A stretch of 64,000 nt of DNA from Enteractinococcus fodinae (lineage in GTDB: Bacteria > Actinomycetota > Actinomycetes > Actinomycetales > Micrococcaceae). Both the position numbers and the translations under genes were made by a program. The DNA lies in assembly GCF_031458395.1 (NCBI RefSeq), contig NZ_JAVDYJ010000001.1:620001-684000 (forward strand), given 5' to 3'. The notes under the pieces were generated by a model. The model saw nothing but the letters and a program-made list of their open reading frames with translations, ran no database searches and was not told the DNA's origin. Position 1 is the first letter of the stretch; every line of letters starts with the position of its first letter. Positions 30,236 to 40,431 of this stretch are shown here, in pieces.

Positions 30236-30982
30236 TCAGTCCAGCAGCCGCCCGTGTTGGGCGACCACGGTCTGGAGTTCCTGCGCGCGGGCCGCAAAAG
30301 TCTCCGGTGGGAGATCGTGGGTAAACCCAGTAACTGTAACGGCCGCAACAATCCGGTCTTGACTGCCGAGCAGGGGCACGCCGATTGCTGTCATATCTTC
30401 ATCCCACTCATTATTCGACACCGCCCAGCCTCGCTGCCGCGCCAGCTCAAGATCAGCCATCAGAGCCGAAGTATCCGTGATGGTGTGAGGGGTAAACCGG
30501 TGCAGGGACTCGGAGGCTATCCGGTCACGGATCTGCTGGTCGGCAAATGCTAGTAAGACTTTGCCGCTACTTGTGGCGTGGCCAGGGGTACGACGCCCCA
30601 CATATTGCCGCGGAGTAAAGAATTTATCCGGTGGATCTGACTGTGCGATGTTCACCGCATAGGTGTCGTCCAAAATCGCCACGTTTGCTGTGAGATTGAA
30701 GTGCTCAGCCACTGCCTCCACGAGCAGTTGAGCGGATCTGGTCAGGTCGTATTGCGAATTCACGGAGCTAGCGAGCTGCAAGATGCCATGCCCAAGTTCA
30801 TAGGCTAAGCTGTCGGGCTGTCGAGTTACCAGCCGGTGTCGTTCAAGTGCTGTCAGCAGCCGCGAGGCAGTCGACTTATGGACGTGGAGCTCTTGGGCAA
30901 TCTGGGTAACCGTGGCGTGCTGTAGTCCGTTGAGGGTCCACAAGATCTGTAGTGCTCGGTCGACTGATTGGTTCGAGCTCAT
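30236..30982 (-). CDS. IclR family transcriptional regulator
   Basis: A 248-residue regulator. The N-terminal winged helix-turn-helix is ATVTQIAQELHVHKSTASRLLTALERHRLV. The C-terminal effector domain contains PGHATSSGKVLLAF and WAVSNNEWDEDMTAIGVPL. IclR proteins usually bind a catabolic intermediate and control an adjacent operon. It is divergent from the dimethylglycine-oxidase-like gene and is the only regulator in the creatinine island, so it is the best candidate for binding the GTTGC-N7-RCAAC repeats. The start at 30982 avoids an unrelated N-terminal extension. Confidence 0.92.
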   Translation of the reverse strand: MSSNQSVDRALQILWTLNGLQHATVTQIAQELHVHKSTASRLLTALERHRLVTRQPDSLAYELGHGILQLASSVNSQYDLTRSAQLLVEAVAEHFNLTANVAILDDTYAVNIAQSDPPDKFFTPRQYVGRRTPGHATSSGKVLLAFADQQIRDRIASESLHRFTPHTITDTSALMADLELARQRGWAVSNNEWDEDMTAIGVPLLGSQDRIVAAVTVTGFTHDLPPETFAARAQELQTVVAQHGRLLD

Positions 30983-31042: not shown

Positions 31043-31100
31043 TACACTGAGTGACACACATCACAGTTGCACTTTATGCATAAGTTGCAACATGCGCAAC
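31043..31100 (+). promoter_or_regulatory. Control region of the oxidase: promoter, CRP-like site, GTTGC-N7-GCAAC repeat
   Basis: A TACACT hexamer (31043-31048) has TTGTCT 18 bases upstream. Directly after it is AGTGA-N6-TCACA (31050-31065), nine of ten matches to the CRP/GlxR consensus TGTGA-N6-TCACA. Then comes the inverted repeat GTTGC-N7-GCAAC (31084-31100), which also occurs at the creatininase and creatinase promoters. A palindromic TTATGCATAA lies between them. The functional reading is inference. Confidence 0.5.
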
Positions 31101-31121
31101 CCCGGCTTGGAAGGTAGTTCG

Positions 31122-33617
31122 ATGGCGGTAACAGAACTCAAGATACTGATAATCGGCTCGGGTGTGGTTGGCGCTGCACTGGCTGATGAACTCACACAAC
31201 GCGGTGTACGAGACGTCACGGTCGTGGATCAAGGTCCCTTATACACCACCGGTGGCTCCTCATCCCATGCTCCGGGGTTTGTTTTTCAGGTCAATCCGTC
31301 CAAAGCGATGTCGGAGCTGGCCCAGCGCACACTGAACAAGCTTGATGAACTTGATCCTGGCGGCGACGACGAATGGCTGCTCAAACGCGTTGGCGGTCTT
31401 GAGCTTGCGTATACCGATGAGCAGATGCGGGAGTTGAAACGCCGACACGGTTTCGCTCAGTCCTGGGGTGTGGAATCAGCACTCATCGATGCCGACCGCG
31501 TGCACCACCTCTGGCCAGCGATCAACACCACCGATTTGGTCGGTGCGTTACACACCCCCACCGACGCCGTGGTGCACTCGGCGCGAGCCGTGGCTGCTCA
31601 AGCCAAGCGCGCGATAGCTCATGGGGCCACGTTTCACGAATACACCCAAGTGGTCGACCTGGTCACCGAAGACGGGGCCGTTACCGGCGTCAGGGTAGTC
31701 GATGCTCTAACCGGCGAGCGCCAACGTATCATCGCAGCGGATCTGGTGGTCGCGGCCGGCGGTATCTGGGGCCCTACGATCGGTCGATGGCTGGGTCGCA
31801 ATTTACCGATGCAACCCATTGAACACGGTTTGGGCTTCAGCCACGAACTGGATGAATTTCAAGATGCGGTCAATGATGAAGCTTGCGATTTCCCGATGGT
31901 CCGTCACCAGGGTGCAGGAATCTATTTCCGACAACAGGGCAAGCGCCTGGTCATCGGTGCCTATGAGCACCGCCCTCTTGAGGTGCGGCAAGATGAAATC
32001 GCAACACCAGCTGAAGCGCTCCGTACCGGACGCCAACCGTCCATCCATGAATTCACCTATGACGAATACGAACCCACCTGGCAAGAAATGCAACGGGTCT
32101 ACCCTTCCGTGCAAGAGGTTGGACTCGATACGCAGCGGTCCTTCAACGGCCTGTTTTCCTTTACCCCCGATGGCGGCCCATTGTTGGGGCCTTCACAAAC
32201 TGTGAACGGTGTATGGCTAGCCCAAGCAGTCTGGGTGACTGCCTCCGCGGGGGTGGCTCAAGTCGTAGCTGACTGGATCACCACCGGACACCCGGGAATC
32301 GATACGGCTGATCTCGATGTGGCTCGGTTTGATCGCCAGTTGCTCTCCCCGGAATTCGCCCGCCAAAAAGGGCTGGAATCTTACGACGAAGTGTATGACA
32401 TTCGCCATCCACGCGCGGCGTCGGTCAAGCTGCGTCGGCTACGCACCTCACCGTTTTATTTCCATCAGAAGCTCGCCGGGGCACACTTTGTTGAAGCCAA
32501 CGGTTGGGAGCGACCCCTATGGTTGGACGATAATCGTCGCGTGCTCGACGAAGCAGACCTGACCTTCCCGAAAATCCCGCCCTGGGATGCTGCTGAGTTC
32601 TCGCCGGTCGCCGTTGCTGAAGCGTGGGCGACTCGTCATCGTGTGGCCATGTATGACATGACGTCGCTGATGCGATTCCGGGTCGCTGGCCCTGACGCTA
32701 CGGCCCTGCTAGAGCGGGTGTGCACCAATACCATCGCTAAAGCGCCGGGCAGCGTCATCTATACGTTAATGCTCGATGAGCGCGGGGGCATCCTGTCGGA
32801 TATCACGGTGACGCGACTTGACGACGAGGAATACTTCCTGGGCGTCAATAGTCACCGCGATCTGGTGCATCTGCGCAACCAAGTTCGTGACAGTGAACGT
32901 GTCGCAATCACTGATGTCTCGGCGGGCACATGCTGTATCGGCCTGTGGGGCCCTCATGCGCGCGATGTGCTCAGTCAGCTGACCGATGACGACATCAGTC
33001 ACGAAGGGTTCGGGTACTTTACTGCAAAGCATCTCTACGTTGCAGCCGTGCCGGTCCTTGCCCTGCGGGTGTCCTATGTTGGGGAGCTCGGATGGGAACT
33101 GTATACCACCGCCGACCATGGGGCGCGTTTATGGGAGGAAATCCAGACGGCAGGGAATGCCTTTGGGCTTGTGATCGGTGGGCGGTTAGCCTTCAACGCC
33201 CTCCGGCTGGAAAAAGGCTATCGGGCGTATGGTGCCGATATTACGCGCGAACACCGACCCGAACAGGCCGGGCTAGGCTTTGCGGTGTCGAAAAATAAGA
33301 CCGCGTTTCTCGGCAAGGAAGCGCTGTCTACATCCCCGATGACTCAACGCCGGATGGTGTCGCTCACCTCAGATTTTCCCTTCGGGGCGCCGAATCCTGG
33401 TTCGCCGGTGCGTGATGCCGGCGGGCAACTGGTCGGCTATACCGCCTCGTCAGATTTCGGCTACACAGTCGGCAAGACCATTACTTACGCCTGGGTGGAT
33501 CCACAGTACGCACAACCTGACACGGAGCTGATCATCAAGCATTTTGATCGCTGTGTCCCAGCGGTGGTCGCAGCTGATCCCTTGTATGATCCAGCCGGAG
33601 AGAAGCTGCGCTGCTAA
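31122..33617 (+). CDS. Dimethylglycine oxidase / sarcosine dehydrogenase-like flavoprotein
   Basis: An 831-residue two-domain enzyme, nearly identical in length and motif order to Arthrobacter dimethylglycine oxidase (830 residues). The N-terminal DAO domain has IIGSGVVGAALADEL, the GGSSSHAPGFVFQ stretch that contains the flavin-attachment histidine in relatives, and GIYFRQQG with a conserved tyrosine. The C-terminal half is a GcvT-like tetrahydrofolate domain (SYVGELGWELY, LRLEKGYRAYGAD). It oxidises an N-methylglycine and transfers the methylene to folate. Here, downstream of creatinase chemistry, sarcosine is a likely substrate. The start at 31122 has AAGG seven bases upstream. Confidence 0.9.
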   Translation: MAVTELKILIIGSGVVGAALADELTQRGVRDVTVVDQGPLYTTGGSSSHAPGFVFQVNPSKAMSELAQRTLNKLDELDPGGDDEWLLKRVGGLELAYTDEQMRELKRRHGFAQSWGVESALIDADRVHHLWPAINTTDLVGALHTPTDAVVHSARAVAAQAKRAIAHGATFHEYTQVVDLVTEDGAVTGVRVVDALTGERQRIIAADLVVAAGGIWGPTIGRWLGRNLPMQPIEHGLGFSHELDEFQDAVNDEACDFPMVRHQGAGIYFRQQGKRLVIGAYEHRPLEVRQDEIATPAEALRTGRQPSIHEFTYDEYEPTWQEMQRVYPSVQEVGLDTQRSFNGLFSFTPDGGPLLGPSQTVNGVWLAQAVWVTASAGVAQVVADWITTGHPGIDTADLDVARFDRQLLSPEFARQKGLESYDEVYDIRHPRAASVKLRRLRTSPFYFHQKLAGAHFVEANGWERPLWLDDNRRVLDEADLTFPKIPPWDAAEFSPVAVAEAWATRHRVAMYDMTSLMRFRVAGPDATALLERVCTNTIAKAPGSVIYTLMLDERGGILSDITVTRLDDEEYFLGVNSHRDLVHLRNQVRDSERVAITDVSAGTCCIGLWGPHARDVLSQLTDDDISHEGFGYFTAKHLYVAAVPVLALRVSYVGELGWELYTTADHGARLWEEIQTAGNAFGLVIGGRLAFNALRLEKGYRAYGADITREHRPEQAGLGFAVSKNKTAFLGKEALSTSPMTQRRMVSLTSDFPFGAPNPGSPVRDAGGQLVGYTASSDFGYTVGKTITYAWVDPQYAQPDTELIIKHFDRCVPAVVAADPLYDPAGEKLRC

Positions 33618-33691
33618 CGCGGTCGCGAACCCTCAAATCACAGGGTCGGAACCGCACGGGTCCCCACCCTGGATGTGGTGTGGAGGGCTCG

Positions 33692-34954
33692 TTAACCGTA
33701 AGTCGGGTCTGCGGCTTTCGGAGCGCCCATGCCGGGATCAATTTGATGGGGACCGTTGGCTGATGGACGGACATCAAAATCGAAAATCGCCGTGGGAATG
33801 TAGACCGTCGAACACGAGTTTGGGATATCGACAACCGAGGAGAGCCGACCCTCGATCGGTGCGGCTCCTAGCAGGAGGTAGGCCTGCTCTTTGGAGTAAC
33901 CAAACTTCGATAAGTACTCGATGGCATGCAGAATCGCGCGCTGATATGACAGGTGCGAGTCAAGATAGCGCTGCTCACCGTCAAGGGTCACCGAGGTGCC
34001 CGAGAATGAAATCCATTCGCTGAAATGCGGGTCCTGACGTCCCGGCATGAAAATCGCATTTTCGGCCACCCCGTAGGTTTCCATGCCACCTTTAATCAGG
34101 TCCACGTGCAGCTCGATGTATCCTCCCATCTCAATGCCACCGCAAAAGGTGATCTCACCGTCCCCCTGGGAAAAGTGGAGGTCGCCAATCGAGAAGTTCG
34201 CGCCGTCGACGAAGACGGGATAAAACACTCTACTGCCCTTGGTGAGGTTTTTAATGTCCTGGTTGCCGCCATTTTCTCGTGGCGGCGCGGTCCGGGCGGC
34301 TTCTGAGGCCACGCGGTCCCAATCATCTTGGGAGATACCGCCCAGCACTGCCTCATCGGGTTCGGGCGGTAGCGCCAATGGGGGCACACGGTTCGGATCG
34401 GTGGCAATCAGATCGCCTTCGCGTTTATTCCACCTTGCTAATAGTTCAGGGCTGGGGGCGGTGGCCATAATGCCCGGGTGGATGAGGCCCTCGAATTTTA
34501 CTTCGGGGATGTGACGGGAGGTAGCCCACGGACCGTGGAAATCCCACACCGCCTTGTAGGCGTCAGGGAATTGCTCTACCAGGAAGCTGCCGCCGTTGGA
34601 TTTTGCAAAGATTCCGGTGTAACCCCATCCTTGACCGGCTAATGGGCCTTCTTCTTGAGGTATTGGTCCGACATCGAGAATATCGACGATGAGCAGGTCA
34701 CCGGGCTCGGCACCTTCGATACGAAACGGGCCTGTGAGTCCGTGAACTTTGTTCATCGGGGCGTTGAGAATATCATCTGCTGAATCATCATTTTTGATAG
34801 CCCCGTCAAACCATTCACGGGAGTCTACTCTGAAGCTATCACCGGGCTTGACGGTTGCTACCGGCGGGATCTCGGGATGGTATCGATTGTGGCCGACCTT
34901 TTCTTGGTCAGTAAAGGGTTTGTCAGAATTCAGGGGGAACAGATTGCCAAGCAT
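33692..34954 (-). CDS. fmdA: Formamidase / acetamidase family amidohydrolase (copy 1)
   Basis: A 420-residue enzyme of the FmdA/AmdA family that hydrolyses formamide or small amides to the acid plus ammonia. The family core is visible as HNRYHPEIPPVATVKPGD, REWFDGAIKNDDSADD, the GWGYTGIFAKSNGGSFL stretch, PPRENGGNQDIKNL, DLHFSQGDGEITFCGGIEMGG and LSSVVDIPNSCSTVYIPT. GGAAGG lies six bases before the ATG at 34954; a longer frame runs through fmdB and is rejected. fmdB lies 52 bases upstream on the same strand. Confidence 0.94.
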   Translation of the reverse strand: MLGNLFPLNSDKPFTDQEKVGHNRYHPEIPPVATVKPGDSFRVDSREWFDGAIKNDDSADDILNAPMNKVHGLTGPFRIEGAEPGDLLIVDILDVGPIPQEEGPLAGQGWGYTGIFAKSNGGSFLVEQFPDAYKAVWDFHGPWATSRHIPEVKFEGLIHPGIMATAPSPELLARWNKREGDLIATDPNRVPPLALPPEPDEAVLGGISQDDWDRVASEAARTAPPRENGGNQDIKNLTKGSRVFYPVFVDGANFSIGDLHFSQGDGEITFCGGIEMGGYIELHVDLIKGGMETYGVAENAIFMPGRQDPHFSEWISFSGTSVTLDGEQRYLDSHLSYQRAILHAIEYLSKFGYSKEQAYLLLGAAPIEGRLSSVVDIPNSCSTVYIPTAIFDFDVRPSANGPHQIDPGMGAPKAADPTYG

Positions 34955-35006
34955 GCTGGACCTTCCTCTGCGTGAATAAACAGCTACGAGTTGGACAGAC
35001 TGCCAA

Positions 35007-35300
35007 TTAGGGCCGAGGCAGTTTCTGGTGCAGTGGGTTGGTGGAGTATTGCGGTGAGTGGTGGCGCCCATTGGGAGTACCGGTAAGGGAATTGACCACC
35101 TGGGGCGTTTCCGCGGTGGCGTTGGTGGCATCGAGAATTCGCATTTGCGCGGAATTACGTTGTGAGGGTCCGATGGCTGGTAACTTACTGGTGGCCCGTT
35201 GACCACAGTGCGGGCAATCCAGGGTGTCCGGTTTGTCATGCATCGTAAAGAATGCTTCGAAAACATCTCCTTGCGGACACCTGTAATCGTAGAGGGGCAT
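35007..35300 (-). CDS. fmdB: FmdB-type zinc ribbon protein
   Basis: A 97-residue protein starting MPLYDYRCPQGDVFEAFF, the FmdB N terminus, with a second pair CPHCG at residues 29-32. In most members the first knuckle is CXXC; here Cys8 is followed by Pro-Gln-Gly, so the expected second cysteine is Gly11. The rest is polar and disordered-looking. FmdB is a putative regulator of formamidase in Methylophilus, and its position upstream of fmdA fits that pairing. AGAGGA lies eight bases before the start. Confidence 0.85.
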   Translation of the reverse strand: MPLYDYRCPQGDVFEAFFTMHDKPDTLDCPHCGQRATSKLPAIGPSQRNSAQMRILDATNATAETPQVVNSLTGTPNGRHHSPQYSTNPLHQKLPRP

Positions 35301-35348
35301 GGAAAAGTTCCTCTCGTTGACGACATGCGTCTGACAATTTGAGCCAAG

Positions 35349-35371
35349 CACAATGCGCCGGGGCGCACAAT
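35349..35371. promoter_or_regulatory. Inverted repeat upstream of fmdB
   Basis: TGCGCC-GG-GGCGCA (35354-35367) is flanked by two direct copies of CACAAT (35349-35354 and 35366-35371), about 50 bases before the fmdB start. It could be an operator. No gene ends here, so a terminator role is unlikely. Confidence 0.35.
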
Positions 35372-35538
35372 GGGGCTGACTTGGGCTGGTATCGTCGTTG
35401 GTCTTTCAACGGTGCTAAAGCATGCGGTCCGCTCGGCTAAGGGTAGTGACGTAACCGGTGAGATACGCCGGGTATTTCATTGAACAAACTGGGCTCACCA
35501 TCGGATGCTGGCCGGTTGTAGCTGGTTAAACAGCGGCG

Positions 35539-35544
35539 TAGGGT
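35539..35544 (+). promoter_or_regulatory. Candidate leaderless -10 (TAGGGT)
   Basis: TAGGGT is followed by six bases and the ATG at 35551 of the DUF488 gene. Confidence 0.55.
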
Positions 35545-35550
35545 ACGCAT

Positions 35551-35919
35551 ATGAGCAGACCGAAAATCGTGCTGAAGCGGGTCTATGATGATGCTGCTGA
35601 AGAGGACGGCCAGCGCGTGCTGGTCGATCGATTATGGCTCCGCGGACTCAGCAAATCGCAGGCACAGATCGATTTGTGGCTAAAAGACATTGCCCCGAGC
35701 CCTGAACTGCGCACCTGGTGGGACCACGACCCAGACCAGTTTGATACTTTTGCGCAGCGATATGAACACGAGCTCGAAGATGAGGATCACACCGAAGCCG
35801 TCGCGCAGCTGCTCTCTCTGATACATGATCACGACCGGGTGACGCTGCTCTATGCAGCCACAGACGAGCAGGTCAACCATGCACGGATACTCCAGGACTA
35901 CCTCAGGCGGAAAAGCTAA
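35551..35919 (+). CDS. DUF488 family protein
   Basis: A 122-residue protein with the DUF488 pattern: LKRVYDDAAEEDGQRVLVDRLWLRGLSK at the start, LWLKDIAPSPELRTWWDHDPDQF in the middle, and VTLLYAATDEQVNHARIL near the end. The function of the family is unknown. The TAA stop overlaps the ATG of the next small gene (TAATG), implying coupled translation of the two products. A leaderless promoter precedes it. Confidence 0.87.
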   Translation: MSRPKIVLKRVYDDAAEEDGQRVLVDRLWLRGLSKSQAQIDLWLKDIAPSPELRTWWDHDPDQFDTFAQRYEHELEDEDHTEAVAQLLSLIHDHDRVTLLYAATDEQVNHARILQDYLRRKS

Positions 35920-36074
35920 TGGGCGACCCCGCATGTTGGCTTGACCAGCTGTGTCCCGAATGCTCTGCCATGCTGGAGCCGCCCGCCGAAGGTGCGACCA
36001 CAGTGCAATGCTGGCGTTGCAAAGCCACCGTTCGATTTGGTGACGAGGGCCCCGAAGTCCTGCCCGATTCGTAG
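35919..36074 (+). CDS. Small zinc-ribbon protein (51 residues)
   Basis: This short frame begins in the stop codon of the DUF488 gene (TAATG). The product carries two CXXC pairs, CPEC at residues 12-15 and CWRC at residues 31-34, spaced like a zinc ribbon, followed by KATVRFGDEGPEV. The coupling and the paired cysteines make it a likely real gene. No specific family is recognised, and it may act with the DUF488 protein. Confidence 0.62.
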   Translation: MGDPACWLDQLCPECSAMLEPPAEGATTVQCWRCKATVRFGDEGPEVLPDS

Positions 36075-36148
36075 AGTGTCGCTCCCTGCGGTATCGTCGG
36101 TCGCTGCACGAGTTGTTGTGGCTACCTTACCTTCGTACTCCAGCAGGC

Positions 36149-36207
36149 TTGACTGTGAGATAGACCACTCGATATATTTGCTGCAACACTGTTGCGTTAA
36201 AGGCAAC
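36149..36207 (+). promoter_or_regulatory. Creatininase promoter with operator-like repeats
   Basis: TTGACT (36149-36154), an 18-base spacer and TATATT (36173-36178) form a good promoter. The spacer begins GTGAG and includes a half CRP-like site TGTGA (36154-36158). GCAAC-N3-GTTGC-N7-GCAAC (36183-36207) starts four bases after the -10, over the expected transcription start. The same arrangement occurs at the creatinase promoter. Confidence 0.65.
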
Positions 36208-36282
36208 TCAGTGTTCGAAGTTCAGTCCAGCATTCTGCTGGCCGTCACCGCCCCAGCTAGTTGGGGAAGCCAAGGAGAGCAC

Positions 36283-37083
36283 ATGTCTTCAGTCTTTCTC
36301 GAAGATCTCGATGCAGATACGTATGCGGCCTATCTTCGTCAGTCCACGTCCACGGTCATCATCCCCACCGGTGCCACCGAACAGCATGGACCGCATATGC
36401 CGATCGGCGTCGATGCGATGTTGTCATCAGACATCGCAGCTGCCGTTGCCCAACAGACTGGTGCCCTGGTGGCCCCGGTTTTTGCCTATGGGTACAAGTC
36501 ACAGCCGCGTTCGGGTGGAGGCGACCATCGGATTGGCACCACCAGTTTGAGCGCAGCCACGCTCATTGGTCTGGTGGAAGACGTGGCCTCGTCCTTCCTC
36601 GCGCAAGGCTTCAAGAATGTGGTCGTGCTCAATGGGCACTACGAGAATTATCAATTTGTCTACGAGGGCTTGGACAAAGCCGTCAAACAGGCCCACACGG
36701 CTGGCAATGCTGGACGGGCCATGCTGATGTCTTATTGGGATTTTGTCGACGACCAGACCCTCGAAGCTGTTTTCCCAGATGGATTCCTCGGCTGGGACAT
36801 CGAACACGGCGGAGTGCTGGAGACCTCGCTGATGTTATTACTCCACCCTGAAAAGGTCGACATGGATCGGGTGGTCGATCATCCGCCGGCTCAGCTGACC
36901 TCTTACGATGTTTTTCCCGAAGATCCCACACGGACCCCGGCCAGCGGGTGCCTCTCCTCTGCCACAGGAGCCACGGCGGCAAAAGGCCAGCTCTTACTCG
37001 ATGCGGTGACGCGTGCGGTCTCCGATGCCTTGATCTCCGAACTTCACCTCCCCCTTCCAGTAGCCTCACGAAAGGCAAACTAA
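36283..37083 (+). CDS. Creatininase family protein (creatinine amidohydrolase)
   Basis: A 266-residue metal-dependent amidohydrolase that opens creatinine to creatine. The metal-ligand pattern is IPTGATEQHGPHMPIGVDA near residues 28-45 (Glu33, His35, Asp44), followed by LNGHYEN and GWDIEHGGVLETS. The ATG at 36283 has AAGGAG six bases upstream; the longer in-frame extension lacks family similarity. Members can act on other cyclic amides, but creatinase and a BCCT carrier next to it support creatinine here. The BCCT gene follows after one base. Confidence 0.9.
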   Translation: MSSVFLEDLDADTYAAYLRQSTSTVIIPTGATEQHGPHMPIGVDAMLSSDIAAAVAQQTGALVAPVFAYGYKSQPRSGGGDHRIGTTSLSAATLIGLVEDVASSFLAQGFKNVVVLNGHYENYQFVYEGLDKAVKQAHTAGNAGRAMLMSYWDFVDDQTLEAVFPDGFLGWDIEHGGVLETSLMLLLHPEKVDMDRVVDHPPAQLTSYDVFPEDPTRTPASGCLSSATGATAAKGQLLLDAVTRAVSDALISELHLPLPVASRKAN

Positions 37084-37084
37084 C

Positions 37085-38869
37085 ATGTCTAAGGGACAAG
37101 TAACGATGAAACCTCCGGATGCCGACGAACCATACGCAGGCCAACAACCGGCAGATAATAGCGACAAATCACCGGTTGAAGTGCCACGTTTTATGGGTCG
37201 CCAGATCCCGCCGTTAGACCGCGTGTTGATCATGGTCATTCCGCCGGTGCTCATCGTGGCGGCGGTCATTTGGGTCATCGTGGACTCAGACGGAGCCGCG
37301 CAGGCCATCTCGACGATGCGTACCTTCGTGACCAGTGAATTCACCTGGCTATTTATTCTTTACTCCCTGGTCGCGCTCATCGTATGTATCTGGGCTGCTT
37401 TTAGTAAGTTTGGTAAAGTCCGCCTCGGCGGGCCCGCAGCTAAACCCTTGCACGGTCGTTTCGCCTGGTACTCCATGTTGTTCGCCTGCGGGCAGGGCAT
37501 CGGCCTGATCTTCTGGTCCGTGGCCGAACCGATCATGCTCCGGGACGAAAACCCGGTCATTCCGGTCACGCCCACTAGCGGAGCAGAAGAAGGCGCCATT
37601 GTCTGGACCTACTTCCACTGGGGTCTGACCGCTTGGGCCATGTACTGTGTCGTGGCGCTCTGTCTAGCGTACTCACACCACAACCTCGGCAAGACCTTAA
37701 CCTTCCGTGAGGCCACGGTCGATATCTTGCCCAAGAAAGCACAACGTCCAGCTGGTGTCGTGATCGAGTTGCTGGCCATTATCGCCACCGTGCTCGGATT
37801 GGCCACGTCCTTCGGGTTCGCTGCAATGCAATTCAGCTCGGGCGTGACCTCTTTTACCGGCCTGGACTCGGGGCCGGGCATGTGGATGATCGTGATCGGG
37901 GTATTCGCCACCATTACCGGCATCTCCGCCTATATCGGCATCAATAAAGGTATGGCCCGCCTGTCAGTGATCAACTCGATTCTGAGCATCGTGCTGGTGG
38001 GGGCGGTCTTTATTTTCGGACCGACGATCTACATGATCTCGACCATGACGCAAACCTTCGGTTCCTTTGGCCAGCATTTCTTATCGATGAGCTTCTTCAC
38101 CGATTTCCAGCTCGCAGCAACCTCGCTGGATACCTGGCAGGACAGCTGGAACGGTTGGTGGACGGTCTTCATTTGGTGCTGGGTTATTGCCTTCTCCCCA
38201 TTTGTTGCAGGCTTCGTCGCCCGGATCTCGCGTGGTCGTACCATTCGCGAATTCGTTATCGGTGTCACCGTGGTGCCATCGTTGATTGTGATGTTCTGGG
38301 TCGGCGTCATCGGCGTCGCCTCGATCTACTATGATGACCAAACCGGACGAGCCATCAGCGAGGGTGTCGCCAGTGATACGTCCAGCGGGTTGTTTCTGAT
38401 GTTGGACCAACTGCCTTTGGTGGGCACGGTCATGTTGGTTGTGGCAACGATCTTGGTGGGGACCTACTACGTCACGTCGCTCGATGCCGGGTCCTATGCC
38501 CTGGGTGAGTTCGTCACTGCCCCGCGCAAATCCAGCCCGTTTTTCCGCGTCATCCTCGTCATTAGCATTGGCACAGTAGCCACCGTGTTGCTCTCCATCG
38601 GCGGAGAAGCCGTCGTGGATACGGTTCAAACCGGCACGATTATCGGTGCCTTCCCGTTCTCCTTTGTGATCTTGCTGATGATCGCCAACTTCATCCGACG
38701 ACTGCACAAGCGCAATCAACAAACGCGCAAAATGGAGCGCGCCATTAACGATCCCGATCCCGACCGAGTACTTATTCCAGATCCGGAAGGGGAAGGTTTT
38801 GTGGAGCCTGCGGAGCAGGACACCACGGTGGCTTCTCGACCGCCTCGTGACGAGACACCTCCCTCCTAA
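37085..38869 (+). CDS. BCCT family transporter (betaine/carnitine/choline type, perhaps creatine or creatinine)
   Basis: A 594-residue transporter with about 12 spans. The quaternary-ammonium-binding regions WTYFHWGLTAWAMYC and WWTVFIWCWVIAFSPFVAGFVARISRGRTIREF are the BCCT signatures. The N terminus is about 40 polar residues and the C terminus another charged tail, both typical of osmo-sensing members. It directly follows creatininase, so the substrate is probably a creatine-pathway compound or a betaine that is demethylated to dimethylglycine. It ends before a strong hairpin at 38904. Confidence 0.9.
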   Translation: MSKGQVTMKPPDADEPYAGQQPADNSDKSPVEVPRFMGRQIPPLDRVLIMVIPPVLIVAAVIWVIVDSDGAAQAISTMRTFVTSEFTWLFILYSLVALIVCIWAAFSKFGKVRLGGPAAKPLHGRFAWYSMLFACGQGIGLIFWSVAEPIMLRDENPVIPVTPTSGAEEGAIVWTYFHWGLTAWAMYCVVALCLAYSHHNLGKTLTFREATVDILPKKAQRPAGVVIELLAIIATVLGLATSFGFAAMQFSSGVTSFTGLDSGPGMWMIVIGVFATITGISAYIGINKGMARLSVINSILSIVLVGAVFIFGPTIYMISTMTQTFGSFGQHFLSMSFFTDFQLAATSLDTWQDSWNGWWTVFIWCWVIAFSPFVAGFVARISRGRTIREFVIGVTVVPSLIVMFWVGVIGVASIYYDDQTGRAISEGVASDTSSGLFLMLDQLPLVGTVMLVVATILVGTYYVTSLDAGSYALGEFVTAPRKSSPFFRVILVISIGTVATVLLSIGGEAVVDTVQTGTIIGAFPFSFVILLMIANFIRRLHKRNQQTRKMERAINDPDPDRVLIPDPEGEGFVEPAEQDTTVASRPPRDETPPS

Positions 38870-38903
38870 ACCATAGATCGACCGCACTGTAAGCGGTCAG
38901 TCC

Positions 38904-38940
38904 AAGCGGGCGTAACCCAGCAATCGGGTTGCGCCCGCTT
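38904..38940 (+). terminator. Terminator-like hairpin after the BCCT gene
   Basis: A 15-base-pair stem (38904-38918 with 38926-38940, one G-U pair) closes a seven-base loop. It lies 34 bases after the BCCT stop but lacks a T run. Confidence 0.6.
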
Positions 38941-39012
38941 TGCTGTGTGGCGCGATTCGAGCTGGTCATGCGGCACTCTCAAAGCCGGCCCGAAAATACT
39001 GTGGCCGCGTGC

Positions 39013-39083
39013 TTGACAGTGAGTGATCTCACACCTATCCTGAATGCAACGGTGTTGCGCTGAATACAACTTCTGCGTGTTGC
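39013..39083 (+). promoter_or_regulatory. Creatinase promoter with CRP-like site and operator-like repeats
   Basis: TTGACA (39013-39018), 17 bases and TATCCT (39036-39041) form a strong promoter. AGTGA-N6-TCACA (39018-39033) lies between the two boxes. GCAAC-N3-GTTGC-N7-ACAAC (39046-39070) begins four bases after the -10, with a further GTTGC at 39079. Order and spacing mirror the creatininase promoter. The rest of the 320-base gap before creatinase (38870-39189) holds the hairpin at 38904 and no gene. Confidence 0.7.
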
Positions 39084-39189: not shown

Positions 39190-40431
39190 ATGGCTAATGT
39201 CACCAGCGTCGGCGAACTTGAGCGCTTGAAGACCCTCCATAACGGCGAAAAACAACCACTGACCTTCTCGGACGCCGAATTCGAACGCCGCCTGAGCGGG
39301 CTGCGCTCAATTATGGCCGAAAAAGACCTTGACGCTGTCATTCTGACCAGCTACCAGAACATCAAGTACTACTCCGATTTTTTGTTCACCTACTTCGGCC
39401 GCTCCTACGCGTTGGTAGTCACCCAGCAGGAATCCATCACGATCACCGCCAACATTGATGCGGGCATGCCATGGCGCACCAGCTACGGTGACAACATCGT
39501 TTACACCGACTGGAAGCGCGACAACTTCTACTACGCGTTACAGGAAGCACTGAACCGTCAGGGCATCAGCGCCAAGCGCATCGGCGTCGAAGACGACACC
39601 GTGCCGACCATGCAGCGCAAAGCCCTGCAGGATACCTTCCCGGACGCCGAACTGCTGGACGTTTCCCAGGCCGCCATGCGCCAGCGCATGATCAAATCCG
39701 CCGAAGAAATCGAAGTCATCAAACACGGCGCTCGGATTGGTGACATCGGCGGTGAAGCCATCAAGGCTGCCATCCGTGAAGGCATCACCGAATACGAAGT
39801 CGCCCTCATCGGCGTCGAAGCGATGACCCACGAGATCGCCAAGACCTTCCCGGATCGCGAAGTCCGTGACACCTGGGTCTGGTTCCAGTCGGGTATTAAC
39901 ACTGACGGCGCACACAACTGGGCGACCACTCGCAAACTGCAGCGCGGGGATCTGCTGTCGCTCAACTGCTTCCCGATGACCTCGGGTTATTACACCGCTT
40001 TGGAACGCACCCTGACCCTGGGCCAGCCAGATGCCCGGACGCTGGAATTGTGGAAGGCTAACGTCGAGGTCCACGAAGCCGGTCTTGAATTGATCAAACC
40101 GGGCGCGGTCTGCAAGGACATCGCCCACGAACTTAACGAAATCTTCATCGGTCACGGACTGCTATCAAACCGGACCTTTGGCTATGGCCACTCCTTCGGT
40201 GTGCTGTCCCACTACTACGGCCGTGAAGCCGGGTTGGAATTGCGCGAAGACATCGACACCGTCCTGGAGCCCGGCATGGTCGTATCGATGGAACCGATGA
40301 TCACCGTGATGGAAGGTGAACCCGGTGCCGGTGGCTACCGTGAACACGACATCTTGGTCGTTGGCGAAGACGGTGCCGAGAACATCACCAAGTTCCCATA
40401 CGGTCCAGAACACAACATCATCGATGCCTAA
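39190..40431 (+). CDS. Creatinase (creatine amidinohydrolase)
   Basis: A 413-residue enzyme of the pita-bread fold, close in length to known creatinases (403-411). It splits creatine into sarcosine and urea. The N-terminal stretch TSYQNIKYYSDFLF, the catalytic histidine in SGINTDGAHN (His242, the counterpart of His232), NCFPMTSGYYTALERTL, TFGYGHSFGVLSHYYGREAGLELREDIDTVLEPGMVVSMEP and PYGPEHNII all match. Metal ligands of the M24 peptidases are not conserved, as expected for creatinase. A purine-rich AAAGGAG site precedes the ATG. Confidence 0.95.
   Translation: MANVTSVGELERLKTLHNGEKQPLTFSDAEFERRLSGLRSIMAEKDLDAVILTSYQNIKYYSDFLFTYFGRSYALVVTQQESITITANIDAGMPWRTSYGDNIVYTDWKRDNFYYALQEALNRQGISAKRIGVEDDTVPTMQRKALQDTFPDAELLDVSQAAMRQRMIKSAEEIEVIKHGARIGDIGGEAIKAAIREGITEYEVALIGVEAMTHEIAKTFPDREVRDTWVWFQSGINTDGAHNWATTRKLQRGDLLSLNCFPMTSGYYTALERTLTLGQPDARTLELWKANVEVHEAGLELIKPGAVCKDIAHELNEIFIGHGLLSNRTFGYGHSFGVLSHYYGREAGLELREDIDTVLEPGMVVSMEPMITVMEGEPGAGGYREHDILVVGEDGAENITKFPYGPEHNIIDA

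Follow-up and report, generated by a model that had tools for sequence, protein, structure and literature searches.

Two predicted classes of IclR-type operator with a common GTTGC half-site in a creatinine and creatine gene island of Enteractinococcus fodinae

Introduction

Binding sites of IclR-family regulators have been described as 17-bp palindromes of the form GTT-11-AAC, which are also found in compound layouts, namely three-box sites in 32 orthologous groups and tandem sites, with 18-22 nt between centres, in 94 groups (Suvorova & Gelfand, 2021; PMC8222616). In the three-box sites the boxes alternate in direction, one pair with the 17-bp GTT-11-AAC spacing and the other with the spacing of TGRAACA-N1-2-TGTTYCA, and the PcaU, PobR and HmgR operators cited in the same paper combine a palindrome with an external direct-repeat box. 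In the present study an inverted repeat, GTTGC-N7-RCAAC, was analyzed, which recurs at the promoters of a dimethylglycine oxidase-like gene, a creatininase gene and a creatinase gene in a stretch of 64,000 nucleotides of Enteractinococcus fodinae (G000:C1:620001-684000, in the following the window; the genome is one contig of 2.93 Mb). An initial annotation of the window regarded the repeat as one repressor operator, named the neighboring IclR protein as the only candidate regulator and knew of no published motif of this form.

The last of these statements was wrong in kind, since 17-bp, three-box and tandem sites of the IclR family are all given in PMC8222616. The arrays at the creatininase and creatinase genes appear to be layouts of this published type with an altered half-site, position 4 being Y in the published consensus and G in GTTGC. 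The oxidase site resembles the PcaU, PobR and HmgR operators in having a palindrome with an external direct-repeat box and differs from them in half-site sequence and target genes. The main text of PMC8222616 contains no GCAAC string, TTGC only once and in another motif, and no word beginning with creatin- nor sarcosine or dimethylglycine, although the orthologous group of the regulator favored below may already be listed in its supplement.

Control of related pathways has been reported for other regulators. In Corynebacterium glutamicum, likewise an actinobacterium, AmtR regulates creatininase and a creatine transporter, but AmtR belongs to the TetR family, recognizes CTAT-N6-ATAG and serves nitrogen control (PMC8864220). 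Sarcosine catabolism is also under control in the sox genes of Bacillus thuringiensis, there from a Sigma54-controlled promoter and with SoxR, by the title of that paper a different regulator (PMC4941409). Creatine and sarcosine genes of Arthrobacter were treated in PMC3534580, the available text of which has no term starting with IclR, and in PMC6904314 a primer match was the only hit in the text available. Published IclR control of creatine or creatinine genes was not found in a literature search that covered few subscription papers.

Comparison of the arrays, of their conservation, of their two classes and of their co-occurrence with two proteins, all of it drawn from sequence, led us to an explanation that we regard as probable: two IclR-family regulators with a common GTTGC half-site would divide the three promoters between them, IclR-A acting at the tandem array between the oxidase and iclR genes, and a second protein, IclR-C, at the arrays before the creatininase-BCCT pair and the creatinase gene. 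The island would offer a candidate regulator and operator dedicated to the breakdown of creatine and creatinine in a large family of actinobacteria, a case where gene adjacency can indicate the wrong regulator, and a natural setting in which to test the proposal of Suvorova & Gelfand (2021) that one half-site serves IclR-family proteins in alternative arrangements.

Occurrence of the motif

The three GTTGC-N7-RCAAC sites were found exactly where they had been reported, at 31084-31100 (oxidase), 36191-36207 (creatininase) and 39054-39070 (creatinase). These are the only distinct places in the window; in 200 dinucleotide-shuffled versions of it the motif had 0.31 places on average and never more than 2. 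A scan of the whole genome yielded eight distinct places, the three promoters and five within open reading frames (ORFs) of at least 100 aa, so that the promoters are the only places outside such mechanically called ORFs in 2.93 Mb. Three of the eight fall in the 8 kb island, against 0.02 expected for a uniform spread (Poisson P(>=3) = 1.7e-6). A chance palindrome was rejected on the shuffles, the clustering in the island and the placement outside ORFs. The motif is not over-abundant, with 11 strand matches genome-wide versus 30 for the pattern read backward; what sets it apart is where it stands and that it is conserved. All three sites agree with the 17-bp palindrome GTT-N11-AAC of IclR-family sites, as the ACAAC at 39054 keeps its AAC, but none has the inner letters GTTYC...GRAAC, position 4 being G instead of Y in each.

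Three-box arrays at the creatininase and creatinase promoters

At two of the promoters the repeat is part of a larger array, GCAAC-N3-GTTGC-N7-RCAAC, as the initial annotation had described. The predicted three-box operator of the creatininase-BCCT pair (36183..36207, plus strand) reads GCAAC-N3-GTTGC-N7-GCAAC without mismatch, and that of the creatinase gene (39046..39070, plus strand) ends in ACAAC, one mismatch (A for G) to GCAAC. Each array begins four bases past a -10-like hexamer and lies over the expected start of transcription. The predicted core promoter of creatininase (36149..36178, plus strand) comprises a -35 TTGACT at 36149-36154 and a -10 TATATT at 36173-36178, with TGTGAGATAGACCACT at 36154-36169 in the spacer, and that of creatinase (39013..39041, plus strand) a -35 TTGACA at 39013-39018 and a -10 TATCCT at 39036-39041, with AGTGAGTGATCTCACA at 39018-39033 in the spacer. 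The sequence GCTTGACWGTGAG, read in both -35 regions as earlier noted, combines the -35 hexamer with the left half of a GTGA-N6-TCAC-like element.

The three-box array appeared in none of 200 shuffles of the window, and one further place with a single mismatch exists in the genome, at 883800-883824 inside a 251-aa ORF. When up to three mismatches were allowed, the genome gave 74 and 74 matches versus 75 and 76 for the reversed control, hence no excess.

Each of the three sites is found again in congeneric species. That of creatininase is kept in 7/7 genus genomes where the gene was read, in its ACAAC form in E. helveticum, and that of creatinase in 8/8 with at most one mismatch. Genus alignments of both promoters share one order: CTTGACWGTGA, a -CAC- half, the -10 hexamer and then GCAAC-N3-GTTGC-N7-RCAAC.

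The tandem site between oxidase and iclR

The oxidase site has another form, GTTGC-N13-GTTGC-N7-GCAAC, and is without the three-box layout, a point absent from the initial annotation. This predicted tandem operator (31066..31100, plus strand) consists of GTTGC at 31066, GTTGC at 31084 and GCAAC at 31096, the two GTTGC boxes standing 18 nt apart, and includes the 17-bp palindrome GTTGCAACATGCGCAAC noted earlier at 31084..31100. It is kept in all eight genus genomes that have the region (window included); the conserved unit of the alignment is a GTTGC box followed 18 nt on by GTTGCAACATRYGCAAC. The 18-nt direct repeat is present in each of the eight, and the second palindrome retains just one good half. 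Set against the published tandem sites, with palindrome centres 18-22 nt apart, the oxidase site thus has the 18-nt repeat with one half degenerate.

Two divergent genes flank the array, a position suggestive of control over the pair; measured from the palindrome centre, the oxidase starts 30 nt away and iclR 110 nt away. Outside the genus the 17-bp core is exact at 9/9 iclR-oxidase pairs read, and two more IclR-A homologs without an oxidase carry it with one mismatch. Oxidase promoters were compared at the best 30 oxidase loci, oxidase matches existing in 111 genomes: a core with no more than one mismatch in the 500 nt upstream was present at 11 of the 13 loci that have an IclR-A homolog within 1.5 kb and at 0 of the 16 testable loci that have none, a locus with a partial oxidase gene lacking its true start (L147) being excluded. 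As the core follows the iclR-oxidase pair across genera, IclR-A is the strongest candidate at the oxidase/iclR site. This protein (30236..30982, minus strand, ATG start at 30982) has the recognition helix VHKSTASR, scores above the cut-off for PF09339 and PF01614, and was placed in the tree described below. Its best-scoring model is TIGR02431 (PcaR/PcaU/PobR), with a score below the cut-off.

As a specific marker the 18-nt tandem pattern alone was rejected, with 20 matches among those listed in 240 genomes versus 22 for the reversed pattern; 10 of the 20 adjoin an IclR-A gene. In the congener G021 the IclR-A gene (L083:8200-8760) has a match over just residues 1-100 and 186-204 and so lacks the greater part of the effector domain, while the oxidase and creatinase sites are retained.

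Two classes of site

A third box of opposite direction, eight bases outside the palindrome (at most one mismatch), separates the sites. It was found in 7/7 creatininase and 7/7 creatinase sites of the genus (14/14, window included) and in none of 25 sites at IclR-A genes, and a single operator class for the three promoters was rejected on this ground. The 25 sites comprise 8 from the genus and 17 from other genera, 13 of the latter at iclR-oxidase pairs and four, with one mismatch, at two IclR-A homologs around which the 16-17 kb of sequence read gave no oxidase match. In other genera 28 of 29 exact sites have the third box; these come from 17 of the 19 creatinase loci read. It is also present in 5/5 sites at a major facilitator (MFS) transporter adjoining IclR-C in congeners. 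Within the genus the published three-box layout is accordingly seen at every creatininase and creatinase site (14/14) and at no oxidase site (0/8). The direct repeat of 18 nt shows the opposite distribution: 8/8 genus oxidase sites, 2/17 IclR-A sites of other genera and 0/48 creatinine-type sites.

The letters of the sites were compared as well. After identical cores had been merged, a leave-one-out assignment on the seven spacer letters and two flank letters on each side placed 21 of 24 IclR-A sites and 28 of 33 IclR-C sites correctly. All 14 genus creatininase and creatinase sites score on the IclR-C side and the oxidase site of the window on the IclR-A side. The reading of the repeat as one repressor operator was therefore abandoned, the creatininase and creatinase arrays having a different architecture from the oxidase site.

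IclR-C and its distribution

The genome encodes ten IclR_C proteins, of which IclR-A is the sole one inside the window; other regulators in the window were sought by eye in the ORF lists for positions 24-64 kb, by family searches on eight window proteins and by a genome-wide listing of IclR_C proteins. IclR-C is encoded at G000:C1:690803-691594, 6.8 kb beyond the end of the window and 31.6 kb from creatinase. Like IclR-A it carries HTH_IclR and IclR_C domains above the curated cut-off, and its recognition helix reads LHKSSVSR. Creatinase clusters of other genera have an IclR-family gene of their own in 17 of the 19 loci read, mostly with the helix LHKSSVSR or LHKSTVSR and 19-25% identical to IclR-A (L013 and L018 were omitted from the profile used to find IclR proteins). 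In the tree IclR-C groups with these creatinase-linked proteins and a second related clade (support 0.98), and IclR-A falls in a clade of oxidase-linked IclRs together with the paralog IclR-B (support 0.999).

Creatinase, oxidase, the array, the tandem pattern and IclR-C were searched in 240 genomes of the family and IclR-A in 245, 17 of its 19 genomes belonging to the set of 240. Exact three-box arrays were found in 105 of the 240, the reversed pattern giving one match. At least 103 of these 105 genomes have IclR-C and nine have IclR-A (E <= 1e-50); for the 97 outside the genus the numbers are at least 95 and two. It is this co-occurrence that speaks against IclR-A as the only candidate regulator. 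Creatinase itself is present in 114 genomes, at least 111 of them with IclR-C (112 counting a weaker match in G214), and in at least 101 of the 106 creatinase genomes outside the genus no more than 5 kb separates it from IclR-C. The IclR-C counts comprise the listed places down to E 2.4e-64 and G214 (5.5e-48), at a search threshold of 1e-40. Of 150 listed three-box places, from 92 genomes and none from the own genus, 116 are within 5 kb of creatinase, although such regions make up roughly 0.3% of the sequence. Conversely, 8 of the 17 IclR-A genomes are without an exact three-box array, and among the matches listed only G214 of those eight has IclR-C (E <= 1e-40).

In the genus IclR-C is among the matches listed in 8/9 genomes, the ninth, G155, being 71% complete. 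Near IclR-C lie the sarcosine genes glyA, soxB and soxA and another gene of creatinase type. Among the congeners, five have a three-box array (in one case with a core mismatch) before the MFS transporter adjoining IclR-C, and a sixth, G021, has an array in the corresponding place before a 450-aa ORF. In the genome of the window the MFS transporter is absent between the two neighboring genes.

Which protein acts at which site

The part of the initial annotation that called the sites operator-like holds, in that they are conserved, have an IclR-type form and in two cases cover the expected start, and IclR-A fits the oxidase site; it does not extend to the creatinine arrays, for which the regulator is here corrected to IclR-C, again on sequence grounds. 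In the scheme that we consider probable, IclR-A (30236-30982) would bind the tandem array at 31066-31100 and control its own expression along with that of the dimethylglycine oxidase-like enzyme. IclR-C would bind the arrays at 36183-36207 and 39046-39070. As these start four bases past the -10 and cover the expected +1, its binding should block transcription, and repression is its most likely effect; a compound of the pathway (creatinine, creatine or sarcosine) would then free the promoters. For this scheme we infer binding, repression, ligand, release and transcription starts.

That IclR-A alone regulates all three promoters, the creatinine genes having been captured into its regulon on moving beside it, would accord with the identical type of 17-bp core at all three, with a recognition helix resembling that of IclR-C and with an adjacency that is fully kept in five congeners and to the contig end in a sixth. 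It is nevertheless hard to reconcile with the lack of the three-box form at any IclR-A site, with the 95 genomes outside the genus that have three-box arrays yet no IclR-A match (E <= 1e-50), and with the presence of IclR-C itself in the genus genomes, and we consider it quite unlikely.

A little more credit, though still not much, is due to joint control, with both proteins binding all three sites through the common core and responding to different ligands. Half-sites and the 7-nt spacing are identical and the helices close, and the creatinine block adjoins IclR-A in the genus and another IclR in 17/19 loci read elsewhere, so that a merged regulon would be an innovation at the level of the genus. 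Against it, the congeners read show a clean split of the flanking boxes between the classes, the pattern that would follow from one protein per site.

Several observations weigh against the preferred division between IclR-A and IclR-C. Similar recognition helices make cross-binding of the common core plausible, and four of the 14 core scores on the IclR-C side are weak (log odds 0.19 to 0.82). The clade of creatinase-adjacent IclRs by itself has a low support of 0.29. The E-value cut-off was tighter for IclR-A (1e-50) than for IclR-C (1e-40), so that IclR-A may be undercounted, and, the genomes being related, the counts are not independent events. At least ten genomes of the family have IclR-C yet no exact three-box array, and the exact core is within 500 nt of only 8 of 22 creatinase genes fetched outside the genus, others having it elsewhere in the cluster. 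No site with zero or one mismatch was found at the promoter of IclR-C itself in this genome. Finally, the creatinine genes of the genus adjoin IclR-A and are 20-32 kb from IclR-C where one contig holds both (5/8). Separated from the regulator that they usually adjoin, and next to a different IclR-family protein, they would be an instance of misleading adjacency.

More tentatively, it is possible that GTTGC is shared by two IclR proteins in one cell and that the arrangement of the boxes alone keeps them apart, the genus having merged two regulons in an 8 kb island, with catabolite repression by a Crp/GlxR protein added through the spacer element GTGA-N6-TCAC. The arrangements meant, and put forward with the same reserve, are an outward pair plus palindrome on the one side and a palindrome plus 18-nt direct repeat on the other.

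Some further loci touch on the two proteins. IclR-B (G000:C1:2106480-2106983, beside a GcvT-domain gene) was set aside as a candidate, its nearest site having one mismatch and the congener loci two-mismatch sites only. Genome G038 has homologs of IclR-C (L101:231-965) and IclR-A (L101:4410-5138) on one contig at a distance of about 3.4 kb; the 16 kb read there gave neither a creatinase nor an oxidase match. Further three-box arrays, GTTGCT-N5-AGCAAC, occur away from creatinase (e.g., G151:C1:539682, G136:C4:267286 and G085:C2:794914), and an IclR of the second clade is found within 8 kb of at least 13 of the 34 listed array places that are over 5 kb from creatinase.

A Crp/GlxR-like element

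A palindrome resembling TGTGA-N6-TCACA, with one or two mismatches, lies in the spacer between -35 and -10 in 14/14 creatininase and creatinase promoters of the genus, in the window at 36154-36169 and 39018-39033. Its counterpart beside the oxidase array, AGTGACACACATCACA (31050..31065), adjoins the tandem operator and was read from the alignment with one mismatch to TGTGAN6TCACA. In other genera the right half of the spacer element is less regular, the T of TCACA often being lost. With at most one mismatch the genome has 73 such sites versus 31 for the reversed pattern, and it encodes a close Crp/GlxR-type homolog (best matches 3mzh, 3d0s and 4byy, structures of the Crp/Fnr family).

These elements bear on the idea that a regulator outside the IclR family, such as this Crp/GlxR protein or a GntR/FCD protein near IclR-C, serves the GTTGC arrays. 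The Crp-like element overlaps the promoters and a GntR/FCD gene adjoins the MFS site in congeners; the Crp-like elements are, however, distinct from the GTTGC arrays, and published IclR-family sites (PMC8222616) agree with the arrays in their length of 17 bp and in the three-box and 18-nt tandem layouts, which makes such a regulator very improbable.

Genes of the island

The nearest named relatives of the genome belong to Enteractinococcus, the IclR-A protein of E. helveticum being 72% identical. The island holds iclR (minus strand), oxidase, formamidase, a DUF488 gene, creatininase, BCCT transporter and creatinase. The FAD/GcvT-type, dimethylglycine oxidase-like oxidase (31122..33617, plus strand) has its best PDB match in 1pj5, an N,N-dimethylglycine oxidase (E 9e-215). 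Formamidase (FmdA, 33692-35368) lies between oxidase and creatininase, and no exact copy of the motif was found at its promoter in the window and the congeners read. Creatininase (36283..37083, plus strand) was identified by TIGR04448 above cut-off and by PDB 1j2t, and is directly followed by the BCCT transporter (37085..38869, plus strand, PF02028). Creatinase (39190..40431, plus strand) matches 1chm, a creatine amidinohydrolase (E 7e-169).

The second creatinase-like gene near IclR-C (L189:9364-10641, G000:C1:685363-686640) is 58% identical and present in 8/9 genus genomes, the ninth being the 71% complete one. In two congeners a GTTGC-N7-GCAAC site is located just 5' of the likely start of a gene for a UmuC/DinB-like polymerase, so named by eye (L086:2967 and L087:3214).

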